Shown: one piece after another, positions 16,869 through 22,847 of the stretch
How positions within the stretch are numbered: position 1 is the stretch's first letter
Layout: every line of letters starts with the position of its first letter
Source of the DNA: Sulfurovum indicum
GTDB taxonomy: Bacteria; Campylobacterota; Campylobacteria; Campylobacterales; Sulfurovaceae
Assembly (NCBI RefSeq): GCF_014931715.1
Contig: NZ_CP063164.1
Location: forward strand, 1,674,001-1,738,000
DNA length: 64,000 nt
Reading direction: 5' to 3'
Program-made: the position numbers and the translations under genes
The notes under the pieces: generated by a model
Seen by the model: only the letters and a program-made list of their open reading frames with translations
Database searches by the model: none
What the model was told of the DNA's origin: nothing

Positions 16869-16933
16869 GAGTGTAATACGAGGTGAGATAAAGGCTGTTT
16901 CGAAACGAAGCTTTATCACATAAGCAGTCATTA

Positions 16934-17032
16934 CAAATCTCTTCCTTACGCCGGTATAATCCGGGTCAAGTTCAACGGGTAGACCTTTGTGGGTCTTCTC
17001 AGCCATGTCTTCCATGGCACCCCGAGAGTTTG
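16934..17032 (-). ncRNA. TPP riboswitch (THI element), biosynthetic operon
   Basis: The minus strand has CTCTCGGGGTGCC, ATGGCTGAGAAG, a variable P3-like stem (ACCCACAAAGGTCT region), TTGAACTTGACCCGGATTAT and GCGTAAGGAAGAG, in the order of the TPP aptamer. The arms CAAACTCT and AGAGATTTG close P1 with one bulged A. It leads thiC and so the whole thiC-O-S-G-E-D operon. It is the second such switch in 6.2 kb. Confidence 0.94.
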
Positions 17033-17142
17033 AAAGTCCACTATAGTCAATTAAAGATAAAATTTCTCTTAAATAACACCTGCTTTACCTAAAGATATTT
17101 GCATTATTATCTTTTACTACACATATAAAAGGAGAAGAGATC

Positions 17143-17585
17143 ATGGGAACCTAATCAACGCATCCACTCCAGAAAACATGAAGACATAAAGAACAAACGC
17201 ACCTTTCTCATCAGCTCAGGCATTGCCTCACTTGCTGCCGCACACTACCTCATCCGTGATGGTTACATGAAAGGTGACAGGCAACCCCCCGATGTCGTCC
17301 CACAAGGCAGCGTCAACCTCGCCTTCCTCAGACAGTTCGCTGAAATAGAAGGTGATTGTATCTTTACCATCGAATACTCGGTACATTCAGCCATGATGAC
17401 GATCTATAGCCTGCTGAACCTCGAAAAGAACCCTCCTAATATTCTACCCCAGCCAGTACGACATCCACGCCCTTGAAGCCGCTTCCAAAACGATGAAACC
17501 CAATGATGAAGGGATCTTGGAGAAAATCACAGAACATGTGTTGATAAAAAAGTTGGCGCATACAACGTGGAAGGGATTGATATAA
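17143..17585 (+). pseudogene. frameshifted remnant of an unidentified small gene
   Basis: An ATG with a strong AAAAGGAG site starts a frame that stops after three codons (MGT*). Shifting by one base gives a long coherent reading (PNQRIHSRKHEDIKNKR, then TFLISSGIASLAAAHYLIRD and on through GSVNLAFLRQFAEIEG) to 17476. A second shift near 17445 restores YPSQYDIHALEAASKTMK to a stop at 17583-17585. The combined product would be about 145 residues. The KRTFLISSGIASLAAAH stretch looks like a twin-arginine-type or membrane segment. I do not recognise the family. It lies tail-to-tail with the fusion helicase gene, 8 bases apart. The stretch 17041-17142 holds only AT-rich promoter-like sequence. Confidence 0.6.
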
Positions 17586-17593
17586 TCGCCATT

Positions 17594-20500
17594 CTATTTC
17601 GTCAAAACAACTTTACACAACGGATGCTTTAAGTAAGCATCTTTCTCTTTGTCATACCACACAACCACATGATCAATATATGCTTTTCCGACTTGATACC
17701 CTTTTTCAAAATAGCCCTGAAGATCCGCATAAAACCTTTTTGACAATAGACCTATCTGTAGACCTTTATAGAAGATAGAAAACGGTCTGTTTTCTCCTCT
17801 TTGTTTGAATGTGACAACTTCACCCGCTATTATCTCATCCCCTTGCATATTCATAGCGTTATCAAACCCAAGTACTATATCTTTTAATCCCATGATCAGT
17901 GTTACTTGCTCATCTTTACTGTTATAGTGGGTTTCATCGAAGAGGTATCTGACGTTCTCATCGGTTTTCGAAAGATTTTGTTTTCCATGCATTAAAATCG
18001 TTAGTTCCTGTTTCGCACGTGTCATGCCCACATAAAAAAGTCGGTACTCTTCGTCTTTTTTGGGCATACGATCAGGTGCAACCAGCAAAATGACTTTGTC
18101 AAACTCCATCCCCTTTGATTTGTGGATGGTAGAAACAGTAACTGTTTTATGGTAAGACTCAAAATCTTCAAACTTGATCTCATCAAGGTAAGCCAACCAT
18201 TGTGAAATATGATACGTAAGGCTCTCCAGAAGAAATTTATCAATCACTTTTTCCAAAAGCGGAAGGTTTTTTGAGCCATTGAACCTTACCTGTGTCAAAG
18301 CAAAGGCTTCACGAAAGTCTTCTGCCCTGTAGAGACTCTCATGTTTGTTTATTTCACTCAAGACCTGATCAAAGTAGATGATCTCTACAAGATTTTTAAG
18401 AGAAAAACCATCTCTATCCAAAATATATTTGACCGTAATCCCTTTGGTATCTAACAGGGAATAGAGTCTCATCACCTCTGCGTTCGTATAGGCTAAAACG
18501 GCACAGTTTTGGAACATCTCCTCTGTTTCAACCTTTTTGACAGCAGGCATGACCAGATCATTCCAGAGGCAAGTCTGTACCGTAACCGATCCCTCTTCCT
18601 CACTGTAAGGCACTAACGGATGGGTCTTGTATCGCTTCTGAACACGTTCTATAAATGTATTGGTATAAGAGACAATTCGTCTTGTGCTTCTAAAGTTGGT
18701 CAGCAGTTCATACTGCTTATAATTATCATTTCCCTCATCGTCCTTTCCGAACACCTCTTTAAACACATCAATAAAACGTACATCCGCTCCGGCATGATCC
18801 ATTATGCACTGGTCATCATCGCCTACGGCGATGATACGCATTTCTCTATTGGCATGGTAAATCTCTTTGACCAGATCAAAACTATCTTGATTGATGTCCT
18901 GATACTCATCCAAAACCAGAACACTTTTAAACGGTAACGATATATCGCCATTAACGATCTGTCTCACCGCCTCGCCGATGGCATTGTGGAGAATATCGTC
19001 ATCCTCTTTTACCACTCTGCCTATGAGTTTCAAAGCATAGGCATGAAAGGTATAGATTTCAATATCATAAGAGATCTCGCCTACCAGCTTATAGAGTCGG
19101 CTTCGAAATTCATTGGCGGCGGTACGGGAAAAGGTGAGCATCATGAACTGTTCGGGTTTGATATCTTCCGTTAGGATCAATGAGGCGATCTTATGCACCA
19201 GCACTTTTGTTTTACCGCTTCCCGGACCGGCAAGCACCATCATCGCTTTGGTCTCCCTGTCGATGATCACCGCTTTTTGTTCATCAGACATTTCAGCAAA
19301 TATCTTGTTGTACCTTCGCTGCGTTATCGGACGTGTGATCTTTGCTTTGACCAAGGCATATTTCTTTTTAAAGGAGTCGTATTCCATCGTAAAATAGTCT
19401 CTTAAGAACTTACCGGCTCTTGTCGGATCGTATTGCAGTATTTTGCCGTATTCACCCATAATATGAATCGCTTCCACCTTGGAACGATAGTGTGGTTCCA
19501 TACGATGTTTATAATCCTGTTTGGTATATTTTTTGTTGATCCGTTTCATCTCCTCCTCTTTAGTGATGATCATAGGCGAATAACTGATAAAACGACCATT
19601 CAACAACTCAACAATACGCATATGGTGCAGATAGAGCAATGCTTTATCGATCGCTTTCATGCTGTACTGTTTCCCTATCTTTTTGCGTAATTGCTTCAAT
19701 GAGAACTCTACTTTTGCCTCTTTCTGCTTCTCCGGTATCTGGCAGATAAAATCGGTAATGATCTTTTTACTGATCGTATGTTTGGACTTCAAGTCATTTT
19801 GAAACGTCTCCTCATCTATCACCTTAAAATACCATAGATCATACTGACGGCTGATACGTTTGAACATAAAGCTGCTTTTGTCTCTGAGGTTACGAAGCAG
19901 ATCTCTAATACGCGTTGATTCATTCTTTTGGATAACTCCCGTACTGTAAAGATGTTCGCTCAATTCCTTGATACTCACCGTTTCACGATCCAACGACAAC
20001 AAATAAGAGACAAGTGATTGTTCTATCTGCCTGATCTCTCGGAACATCTTTAAAGCGTTTTTAAAGATCATCAAGCTTAAATCTTTACTGTCACCCAAGA
20101 TGCTCATCTCCTTAAGCTGCTGTATCGCCAACGCAATAGCCGATTTTTCCGCACCGAGAAGAAAAGCCAACTCATCAATTTGTATCGACCCTGTACTGCC
20201 TCGGTGCAAAATATGCTGAAGTACCAGTATCAACAGTTCCTTGTCCTTTTGTTCTAATGTTTGATCGGCTAAGGTTTGATGGAGTTTATCCATACTTTGT
20301 GCAGCAACAGAGTCGGCAAAAAATCTGGTTTTGTTCCGTTTCCGGCTGATGTACCCTTCTCTCTCCAACTCCAAGAGTGCCGTTTTAACTTTTGTACCAT
20401 AGTCGACCGCACTATCTTCTATATCCCATCCCGCTTCAAGGGCTATTTCAAAAGCTGTTTTGGTCACAGTATCGCCTTTGGCTCGTTTAATAACCTGAAA

Positions 20501-22447
20501 CACGGAGTTGATTTCGGCAGCAGTGATCTTGGAACGGTTCAGTGCGGCAAAATGTTTATCCATATCATTCTCATCGAACAAAATAGGACAAAAGGCTTCC
20601 AGCTTCTCATTTCGCGCGCCTCTTCCCGCTTCCTGTGCATAGTTCTCCAAAGAGTCCGAGACCTCGTAGTGGATGACGTTGGTGATGTCCGCTTTATCTA
20701 CGCCCATCCCAAATGCTGTGGTCGCGACAATAACATCAATACGGTTCTCAATATAGTCTTTGAGTATTTGCATCTTCTCTTGCGAATCAAGCTTGGAGTG
20801 AAAAGAGCGCACCGTTTTGTCCGTATCAATATTGAGTTGTTCGGCGATTTTGTCACACTCTTTAGTCGACGATGGGATATACACCAGTGTTGCGCCATTA
20901 TGCTCATTGATCAGTTTCAAAAGTGCTGGATACTTCTCTCTGTTCTCAGCAGGCAGTGCTTTGTATTTGAGGTTTTTTCTCTCAGGCTTGGCGACATACT
21001 CATCAAGCTTTAACCCCAACCCCTCAAAGAAATACGTTTTAATATCGTCAATTACATCCTTTTTCGCCGTTGCAGTAAAACAGGAAACAGGGATATGATC
21101 CTGATAGTTCTTTGCTTCAAGCAGATCGTTAATATAGTCACAAATATAGTAGTAGTCCTGTCTAAAGTCATTTCCCCATGTAGAGAGACAGTGTGCTTCA
21201 TCGACCACAAAGCGTTCAATGAGCCTGTTTTTCAAGATATTGAAGATCATATTCGAGCGTAATGACTCAGGTGCCAAGTAAAGAATATCCGCTTCTCCAT
21301 TCACCACCTGCTCTATTGCTTCACTTCGTTCAAGCGGGCTCATGTATCCACTAATGGCTACGGCTTTGTAGTTAGCCACCTTGGCATTAAAACTTGTAAT
21401 ATGGTCTTCTATCAATGCTTGCAAAGGTGAAATGACAACGGTTAACGACTTGGTCGTTTTTGCCTTGATGATCGCCGGCAGCCAGAATGTGAATGTCTTA
21501 CCTCCACCGGTAGGTAAGACGGCAAGAAAAGAGTCATTGTTCAATGAAGCTTCAATAATATCTTTTTGGGAGACCTGCGAACTGAGTAGCGTAGGGTTCA
21601 GTTTTGGAAAGATCCTAAAAGTGCCGAAGCCGAATGTCTCCTTGGAAAAAGCACTTAAGCTTTTCTTTTCGTAAGAGAGGTCAAAACAGAGTTCTCTTTG
21701 GATATTGACAATATCCGGATGGCGGAACAGGATTCTTGGCGGATGCGATTTGATCTCAATGTGTGGCGTTAAGAGAGCGATAATATATGCAAGCTCAACA
21801 GGGTGCTTTTTGATCACCTCTTTGAGATACTTGGTATTTTTGATGACCTGTTCGTATTCGCCGGAAATAATGCTATGAAGTTCTTTTGCATCCATGAACA
21901 CAAAGGACCGATCATTCGATAAGTAATCAAAAAAGCCGCTGAAGTGCTCCTCTTCTCTCAAAAGAGAATAAAAGATATTTTGAAGTTTCCTCTCCAACAA
22001 TAAAAAACGTGTCTCTATGCGTCCAAAAAGTTCAGCAGTCAATTTGGAATCCTCTACCGGATCATTTTTAAAGTCATCTTCACTCTTATAGTTTTTTGGT
22101 AAAGCATGTATCGATTTTTCATTAAAAAGCAAGAGAGAAAGAGACAAGGTATCTATAATCTTATGCGCTTTTAATGCATAATAAAGCGTGGTGTCTCTTA
22201 ATATCTCCAGATCGAAATCGATAAAGTTATGCCCACACATATAACGGGCATTGCAGAATTTAATAAAGTTGACCGTCTCCTTAATGCCGGTGGTGTTATG
22301 TGTACGGTTTTTATACACCATTCCAAGTTCATAGATCTTCTTCGTATGTTTATCTACTTCAAGATCTAAAAATATGATATTTTGATAATTGATTTCAGCA
22401 ACCATTGTAAGATCTGTCTTCCTCTCTTGTTTATATAATTCTATCAT
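17594..22447 (-). CDS. exonuclease-RecQ-UvrD fusion helicase
   Basis: This 1617-residue protein joins three machines. Residues about 22-160 look like a DnaQ-type 3'-5' exonuclease (FLDLEVD with Asp28/Glu30, GHNFIDFDLE with Asp78, NDPVEDSKLT with Asp133; the usual His before the last Asp is Asn). Residues about 285-800 are a RecQ helicase: LPTGGGKT Walker A near 311-318, DEAH at 416-419, SCFTATAKK, and FGMGVDKADI followed by AQEAGRGARNE. Residues about 1045-1530 are a UvrD/Rep SF1 helicase: LAGPGSGKTKVL, TFHAYALKL, LVLDEYQD, VGDDDQCI, STIHKSKGMEFD, YVGMTRAKQEL. The two motors probably unwind DNA with cooperating polarity while the nuclease trims an end. Repair or anti-mobile-element defence are both possible. 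The start at 22447 has AGGGAA upstream; an ATG at 22405 is an alternative. Confidence 0.88.
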   Translation of the reverse strand: MIELYKQERKTDLTMVAEINYQNIIFLDLEVDKHTKKIYELGMVYKNRTHNTTGIKETVNFIKFCNARYMCGHNFIDFDLEILRDTTLYYALKAHKIIDTLSLSLLLFNEKSIHALPKNYKSEDDFKNDPVEDSKLTAELFGRIETRFLLLERKLQNIFYSLLREEEHFSGFFDYLSNDRSFVFMDAKELHSIISGEYEQVIKNTKYLKEVIKKHPVELAYIIALLTPHIEIKSHPPRILFRHPDIVNIQRELCFDLSYEKKSLSAFSKETFGFGTFRIFPKLNPTLLSSQVSQKDIIEASLNNDSFLAVLPTGGGKTFTFWLPAIIKAKTTKSLTVVISPLQALIEDHITSFNAKVANYKAVAISGYMSPLERSEAIEQVVNGEADILYLAPESLRSNMIFNILKNRLIERFVVDEAHCLSTWGNDFRQDYYYICDYINDLLEAKNYQDHIPVSCFTATAKKDVIDDIKTYFFEGLGLKLDEYVAKPERKNLKYKALPAENREKYPALLKLINEHNGATLVYIPSSTKECDKIAEQLNIDTDKTVRSFHSKLDSQEKMQILKDYIENRIDVIVATTAFGMGVDKADITNVIHYEVSDSLENYAQEAGRGARNEKLEAFCPILFDENDMDKHFAALNRSKITAAEINSVFQVIKRAKGDTVTKTAFEIALEAGWDIEDSAVDYGTKVKTALLELEREGYISRKRNKTRFFADSVAAQSMDKLHQTLADQTLEQKDKELLILVLQHILHRGSTGSIQIDELAFLLGAEKSAIALAIQQLKEMSILGDSKDLSLMIFKNALKMFREIRQIEQSLVSYLLSLDRETVSIKELSEHLYSTGVIQKNESTRIRDLLRNLRDKSSFMFKRISRQYDLWYFKVIDEETFQNDLKSKHTISKKIITDFICQIPEKQKEAKVEFSLKQLRKKIGKQYSMKAIDKALLYLHHMRIVELLNGRFISYSPMIITKEEEMKRINKKYTKQDYKHRMEPHYRSKVEAIHIMGEYGKILQYDPTRAGKFLRDYFTMEYDSFKKKYALVKAKITRPITQRRYNKIFAEMSDEQKAVIIDRETKAMMVLAGPGSGKTKVLVHKIASLILTEDIKPEQFMMLTFSRTAANEFRSRLYKLVGEISYDIEIYTFHAYALKLIGRVVKEDDDILHNAIGEAVRQIVNGDISLPFKSVLVLDEYQDINQDSFDLVKEIYHANREMRIIAVGDDDQCIMDHAGADVRFIDVFKEVFGKDDEGNDNYKQYELLTNFRSTRRIVSYTNTFIERVQKRYKTHPLVPYSEEEGSVTVQTCLWNDLVMPAVKKVETEEMFQNCAVLAYTNAEVMRLYSLLDTKGITVKYILDRDGFSLKNLVEIIYFDQVLSEINKHESLYRAEDFREAFALTQVRFNGSKNLPLLEKVIDKFLLESLTYHISQWLAYLDEIKFEDFESYHKTVTVSTIHKSKGMEFDKVILLVAPDRMPKKDEEYRLFYVGMTRAKQELTILMHGKQNLSKTDENVRYLFDETHYNSKDEQVTLIMGLKDIVLGFDNAMNMQGDEIIAGEVVTFKQRGENRPFSIFYKGLQIGLLSKRFYADLQGYFEKGYQVGKAYIDHVVVWYDKEKDAYLKHPLCKVVLTK

Positions 22448-22514: not shown

Positions 22515-22847
22515 ATGCTGCGTGGTTTTGGTAAGAACTACTTTACATTGTCGTCCATACTTGCACACGCTGTTGCGCACAAGCTTCAGGCACAGGTAAC
22601 CTCTACACAAACACTTCTCCGCCTTAACAATGACAAGGAGTCTTCGGAGGACGGTGATCCGCCTGAAGAGCTGCTTGAAGAGCGTACGGCACTCCAGCCG
22701 GTCAACCCCTGCCATTGTAACTGTTACTATAAACGCAAAGCCCGTCTGGTGCTTCTGCTCAACCACTTCATTCCCCGTTGTCCATTCTATACAACATTTT
22801 ATGCCTTTCGGCGTACGGGTGTGCACCCTCCCCTTTTTTCTTCATAA
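22515..22847 (+). CDS. hypothetical 110-residue protein upstream of metE
   Basis: This short frame starts at an ATG with a very good ribosome-binding site (ATAGGAGAAGTATC), which is the main reason to believe in it. The product has a hydrophobic N-terminal third, an acidic middle (SSEDGDPPEELLEE, about 44-57), then a cysteine cluster PCHCNCYYKRKAR and a hydrophobic tail. I recognise no family. It is divergent from the helicase gene and 129 bases before metE. A reverse frame over the same stretch has no ribosome-binding site. It could be a real small protein or part of the metE leader. Confidence 0.45.
   Translation: MLRGFGKNYFTLSSILAHAVAHKLQAQVTSTQTLLRLNNDKESSEDGDPPEELLEERTALQPVNPCHCNCYYKRKARLVLLLNHFIPRCPFYTTFYAFRRTGVHPPLFSS

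Follow-up and report, generated by a model that had tools for sequence, protein, structure and literature searches.

Within a window of 64,000 nt of Sulfurovum indicum (GCF_014931715.1, NZ_CP063164.1, positions 1,674,001-1,738,000, forward strand), the minus-strand open frame 17594-22447, of 1617 codons, encodes a single chain in which a DEDD-fold exonuclease is followed by an SF2 core of the RecQ type, linkers that resemble winged helices, an SF1 motor of the UvrD type and, at the C-terminus, a small beta domain. It represents a large family, with at least 563 relatives confirmed by a pattern scan of species genomes, in which the nuclease-SF2-SF1 order is fixed and which is annotated only as RecQ; its nuclease is invisible to Pfam. 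Each module is known, and it is the combination, together with an asparagine in the nuclease site, that is new among helicase-nuclease enzymes. We favour, at slightly less than even chance, a self-contained helicase-nuclease that moves horizontally and works on foreign or abnormal DNA.

Three enzyme modules in one reading frame

Residue numbers throughout are those of the 1617-residue frame, even though the protein probably starts 14 codons in. In the congeners G009 and G452, which share AGAGAGGAAG upstream of the ATG at 22405, an in-frame stop follows the first ATG and lies just upstream of the one at 22405; the true start is therefore probably the ATG at 22405 (residue 15), and the most likely coding sequence, 17594-22405 on the minus strand, has 1603 residues.

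We aligned 100 full-length proteins of about 1560-1900 residues, taken from the loci fetched and spread over more than ten phyla. In all of them the same modules follow one another in the same order within a single frame and both ATPase sites are intact, and because this order is kept by 100 homologues the fusion is, judging from the alignment, far beyond chance. The first-pass annotation had described three modules in one frame and mentioned that similar long fusions are annotated as plain RecQ. The former is confirmed by Pfam for the motors and by profile search and an AlphaFold model for the nuclease; as to the latter, the NCBI name of such proteins is indeed "RecQ family helicase" and nothing else. 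On the full protein, Pfam finds DEAD (294-465), Helicase_C (505-613), UvrD-helicase (from 1054) and UvrD_C (to 1487), with no match before residue 290, so that the nuclease is missed.

A helical bundle (residues 151-290; 21578-21997, minus strand), seen in the model, the structural match and the family alignment, joins the nuclease to the helicase. In 74 of the 100 relatives this linker contains a Cys-x(3-8)-Cys-x2-Cys cluster, located where the window's protein has residues 225-285 (about 21593-21775) and possibly zinc-binding; it is absent from this copy, from the Campylobacterota group as a whole and from two cyanobacterial copies.

The RecQ-type SF2 core follows (residues 291-640; 20528-21577, minus strand), delimited by Pfam, NCBIfam, PDB and alignment, with Walker A K317, the DEAH box at 416-419 and R609/R612. 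It scores 226 bits against the RecQ family model TIGR00614 (cut-off 219.8), and 236 bits against the 640 required by the RecQ equivalog TIGR01389. Its closest PDB relatives are BLM and RECQ5. No RecQ zinc Cys4 stands behind the core, residues 615-760 being devoid of CxxC in all 100 members, and Pfam, run on the whole chain, gave no HRDC match; a divergent HRDC may be present. The helical, winged-helix-like connector (residues 641-1045; 19313-20527, minus strand), delimited by the secondary structure of model m0adc1cfcd1fe, is predicted to be mostly helical with short hairpins, which may be those of winged helices.

The second motor is a UvrD/PcrA-type SF1 helicase (residues 1046-1490; 17978-19312, minus strand) with Walker A K1079, D1180/E1181, Q1213, R1253 and R1477. 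The model of residues 625-1617 (mean pLDDT 83) matches UvrD and PcrA with Foldseek E-values of 1e-23 to 1e-25, and the module superposes on D. radiodurans UvrD with Z 39 over 443 residues; AddA and RecB come after UvrD/PcrA among its structural matches. Pfam, PDB profile search, this Z score and the conserved motif residues all identify a UvrD/PcrA/Rep SF1A core with the complete set of motifs, which scores 111-129 bits against the 911-1144 of the UvrD, PcrA and Rep equivalogs. The chain ends, according to model and alignment, in a small, moderately conserved beta domain with no family assigned (residues 1491-1617; 17597-17977, minus strand). Across the 100 full-length members both Walker A lysines, both DEAH/DExx boxes, R609/R612, Q1213 and R1253 are invariant; the listed helicase motif residues are 97-100% conserved, except for S/T at 318.

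The exonuclease domain and its asparagine site

The DEDD-fold exonuclease occupies residues 22-150 (21998-22384, minus strand), as defined by profile, model and family alignment, with the acids D28, E30, D79 and D133, N128 at the His position, and H114 and K118. A profile built from 12 N-termini retrieves TREX/DEDDh exonucleases from the PDB at E 4e-4 and DinG at E 0.03. The AlphaFold model of residues 20-292 (mean pLDDT 92) aligns best in structure with S. aureus DinG, over its exonuclease and helical bundle (Z 12.7 across 206 residues, rmsd 4.3), and next with ExoI, Pol II, the TREX-like Plex9.1 and Cap18 at Z 10-11. With matches at Z 10-13, the domain has the RNase H-like exonuclease fold of the DEDDh/DEDDy superfamily. 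A domain search without any N-terminal nuclease fold had been named beforehand as grounds for abandoning the fusion; the fold is there.

The four acids D-E-D-D are present in 99-100 of the 100 members: D28, D79 and D133 are invariant, as is K118, and E30, H114 and N128 are each found in 99. Profile alignments put Asn128 in the catalytic-His column of the exonucleases, in agreement with the earlier remark that Asn replaces His in the last nuclease motif. Where DEDDh enzymes have His, five residues before the last Asp, 99 of 100 members have N128 and one has Ser; where DEDDy enzymes have Tyr, four residues before it, 93 of 100 members have D or N (position 129), with no Tyr listed. The nuclease sequence also matches family A phage polymerases, weakly, and a single profile alignment, made with a family A polymerase (L228), suggests that H114 may correspond to the His in the exonuclease motif of phage polymerases.

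Being fixed across the family together with H114 and K118, the Asn is a family trait rather than a mark of decay: by alignment, Asn for His is a family signature and a constrained variant site. A decayed or damaged nuclease in this copy was considered and rejected, as the Asn is family-wide. The suggestion that the nuclease may be altered thus has to be recast: the site deviates, but not through decay of this copy. A DEDD site with neither His nor Tyr may nevertheless make a poor nuclease.

Distribution, transfer and neighbourhood

The gene is accessory, transferred and plasmid-borne. Counting the window's own genome, it is carried by 3 of 60 relatives and by 23 of 397 genomes of the phylum (about 94% lack it), which belong to 15 of its 68 genera; one genome of the phylum has two copies and another a truncated one. 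In the same genus, locus L055 (G030) has a copy about 54% identical and broken over several frames, which may be a pseudogene or a sequencing error. By tblastn, 16 plasmid records contain at least 80% of the protein, among them records from Aliarcobacter, Bacteroides, Nostoc, Rhizobium and Thiothrix, and here too it is named only RecQ family helicase. Five IMG/VR contigs, whose viral nature is putative, match well, four of them over the full length. The 50,697 phage records held no full-length copy, and a phage origin was rejected on that ground.

We found no description of the three-module protein in the literature searched, most subscription journals lying outside it. One report describes a gene in which only a RecQ ATPase domain was detected, close to the RecQ of a gammaproteobacterial symbiont; that it belongs to the same family is only possible (PMC6390638).

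In G000, G009 and G452 the helicase gene lies between thiC and a 110-residue ORF that precedes metE, with the reservation that the G452 locus, where an ABC operon occupies the far side of the gene, does not extend to thiC. The gene is missing, and the site empty, in congeners whose thiC-metE junction is intact. One edge of the insertion site in the window is the divergent 110-residue ORF (22515-22847, plus strand), found beside metE in the genus with or without the helicase gene; the other is the TPP riboswitch of thiC (16926-17034, minus strand). The ORF, kept upstream of metE in about 30 congeners, has a Cys-rich C-terminal half (PCHCNCYYKRKARLVLLLNHFIPRCPFY) and no Pfam family; as a partner gene it was rejected, since it tracks metE and not the helicase. 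The first-pass annotation had spoken of a lone gene beside a decayed one. The gene does stand alone, and the decayed neighbour is what is left of an oleate hydratase (MCRA) gene that has suffered an internal deletion (17192-17473, plus strand; Pfam E 7e-22); the ORF at 22515-22847 is intact and conserved in the genus. The aligned DNA of G009 lacks the stretch of the remnant.

An ABC transporter operon fills the gap before metE in G448 and G452 (L191, L192). This gap looks like a hotspot, given that G452 has the helicase gene beside the ABC operon there. Between G000 and G009 the helicase gene has a dS of 0.68, well below that of the flanking genes (1.1-2.5 or saturated), so it was probably exchanged between the lineages after their split. 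Its dN/dS in the same comparison is about 0.065, and it is under strong purifying selection. In the family tree the host-family codes f1, f8, f10, f16 and f20 are interleaved. Phylum labels cluster fairly well in the large non-Campylobacterota group, and transfer would therefore be less frequent there. A universally conserved chromosomal context, announced in advance as an outcome that would count against the first reading, did not appear.

No constant partner accompanies the gene: no neighbouring family recurs beyond a few per cent of the roughly 100 loci, and a conserved operon partner was rejected, the commonest neighbour families being generic. In Campylobacterota the neighbours include HNH_4 (3), AbiEii-type AAA_21 (3), methyltransferases, type I/II restriction-modification genes, DUF2779 (2) and integrases (2), the last adjoining the helicase gene in two genomes; random loci of the same genomes contain mainly housekeeping families. 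The corresponding PADLOC comparison, 184 families vs 27, counts models and not proteins, each restriction-modification gene matching many models, and is unfit as a statistic. Single neighbours in other phyla match Avs2, a CBASS cyclase, HEC-01 and type IIG enzymes, most neighbours there being metabolic; elsewhere a type I-D CRISPR locus or a type I restriction-modification system lies near relatives. The neighbour analysis proposed earlier as a probe for defence enrichment thus returned some restriction-modification, Abi and HNH genes, a suggestive signal only, amid mostly ordinary neighbours. On the Aliarcobacter plasmids the gene adjoins parAB and replication genes.

Three further associations were noted. 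A methyltransferase-HNH gene adjoins the helicase gene in two loci and a truncated helicase copy in a third (L070:12813-14555, L063:12325-14038, L054:6975-8714), the gene being split in L063. In two loci from different host families, a DUF2779 gene and the start of the helicase frame share a few bases (L057:6068-7546, L064:12286-13773). The tRNA methyltransferase family gene mnmA lies at most two genes away in L056, L073, L082 and L093, from two phyla, which may be chance.

Proposed function and related systems

As families, RecQ and UvrD helicases travel 3'->5' and DEDD nucleases degrade from the 3' end. In the mechanism we propose, loading of the protein would take place at a single-stranded 3' end or gap; the RecQ motor would open the duplex, the UvrD motor would translocate or strip bound protein, and the DEDD domain would trim or hold the exposed 3' end. 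A weaker part of the proposal is that the main target would be incoming or abnormally replicating DNA, phage or plasmid, rather than a substrate of housekeeping repair; the protein would then be the counterpart, in one polypeptide, of two-part systems like Gabija.

Housekeeping repair fits poorly with a gene that is patchy, transferred, carried on plasmids and redundant with RecQ, UvrD and AddA. The window's genome also has its own RecQ and UvrD-like helicases. In 45 genomes, carriers and non-carriers alike, AddA is always present, and an ordinary RecQ scores above the cut-off in 12 of 23 carriers vs 14 of 22 non-carriers. Both thus occur beside the fusion as they do without it, so it replaces neither; replacement of AddAB and replacement of RecQ were each rejected on these counts. 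As to "repair or defence", as it was first put, distribution, transfer, plasmids and redundancy weigh against the housekeeping half, and the defence enrichment is suggestive only. Against our preferred reading stand the immediate neighbours, most of which are ordinary metabolic genes with no constant partner among them, and the defence enrichment itself, which, counted in model matches and not in proteins, is not statistically firm.

We consider it rather unlikely that the protein is an accessory factor of repair or recombination, which would mirror in bacteria the exonuclease-RecQ order of WRN, act on stalled forks or recombination intermediates and have spread through its benefit under DNA stress. 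RecQ, UvrD and DEDD exonucleases all belong to repair, BLM/RECQ5 are nearest to the RecQ core and DinG to the exonuclease module, and many copies sit among ordinary genes; in B. subtilis, DinG acts as a 3'->5' exonuclease and mitigates replication stress, which counts in the same direction (PMC12525004). However, the gene is missing from about 94% of the genomes of the phylum and has often been gained or exchanged, and its hosts already have AddA, UvrD/PcrA and often RecQ, with which it is redundant. Less probable still is a gene that serves plasmids or integrative elements in replication, recombination or competition, its chromosomal copies being leftovers. Full-length plasmid copies, those of Aliarcobacter with their parAB and replication genes, the adjoining integrases and the IMG/VR matches would fit such a role, but most copies are chromosomal without mobility genes alongside, there is no conserved relaxase or replication partner, and full-length copies are absent from the phage records.

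Whether the nuclease cuts is a separate question, and the likelihoods we attach to the alternatives therefore do not add up to a whole. That the domain is catalytically dead and only binds 3' ends, leaving a two-motor translocase, seems to us doubtful, about as much so as accessory repair. The general base His/Tyr is replaced by Asn in 99 of 100 members, and pExoDinG offers a precedent of a pseudo-exonuclease joined to a helicase (PMC11981726); yet pExoDinG lacks two of the acidic residues, whereas here all four metal-binding acids are invariant, and so are H114 and K118 in the same domain.

Among known systems, ExoDinG (DinG of B. subtilis and S. aureus) comes close in that a single chain places a helical bundle and then an SF2 helicase after an N-terminal DEDD exonuclease, and it is also the best structural match of model residues 1-236. 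DinG, however, pairs a DEDDh nuclease with an XPD-like, usually iron-sulphur, motor, whereas the fusion has an Asn site, a RecQ-type SF2 core and an added UvrD; lacking the XPD-like motor, it is no ExoDinG. WRN likewise has its exonuclease N-terminal to the RecQ core, but is eukaryotic, has RQC and HRDC and no UvrD, and the fusion's RecQ core scores higher to BLM and RECQ5. The best PADLOC matches of that core are RqlH/PsyrT and DpdF, RecQ-like helicases of defence systems; these matches are limited to residues 292-681, and neither has a nuclease or UvrD module.

The UvrD-module profile also matches, at E 1e-33, GajB of Gabija, the compact UvrD-like helicase of a nuclease-helicase pair that acts against phage. 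In contrast to Gabija, the fusion has no GajA (OLD/TOPRIM) partner and carries its nuclease as a DEDD domain in the same chain; its neighbours are thiC, the 110-residue ORF and metE, with no constant partner in the family's loci, and it cannot be assigned to that system. RecBCD and AddAB also bring SF1 motors and a nuclease to DNA ends, and the UvrD module matches them structurally. The fusion differs in lacking a RecB-type nuclease and a RecC/AddB partner and in having an SF2 RecQ as its second motor, while carriers possess AddA as well; the Pfam scan found no PD-(D/E)XK domain, the genome encodes a separate AddA, and the protein falls outside this group too.

A more specific possibility, which we hold unlikely by a slightly wider measure than accessory repair, is an undescribed single-protein immune system present in more than ten phyla under the name "RecQ", whose Asn-site exonuclease (N128, H114, K118) and two motors would destroy or block foreign DNA. 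A role in defence would make the protein the one-gene equivalent of Gabija or of RecBCD-like systems; and if its Asn-site nuclease is active, it would stand as a third catalytic type beside DEDDh and DEDDy.
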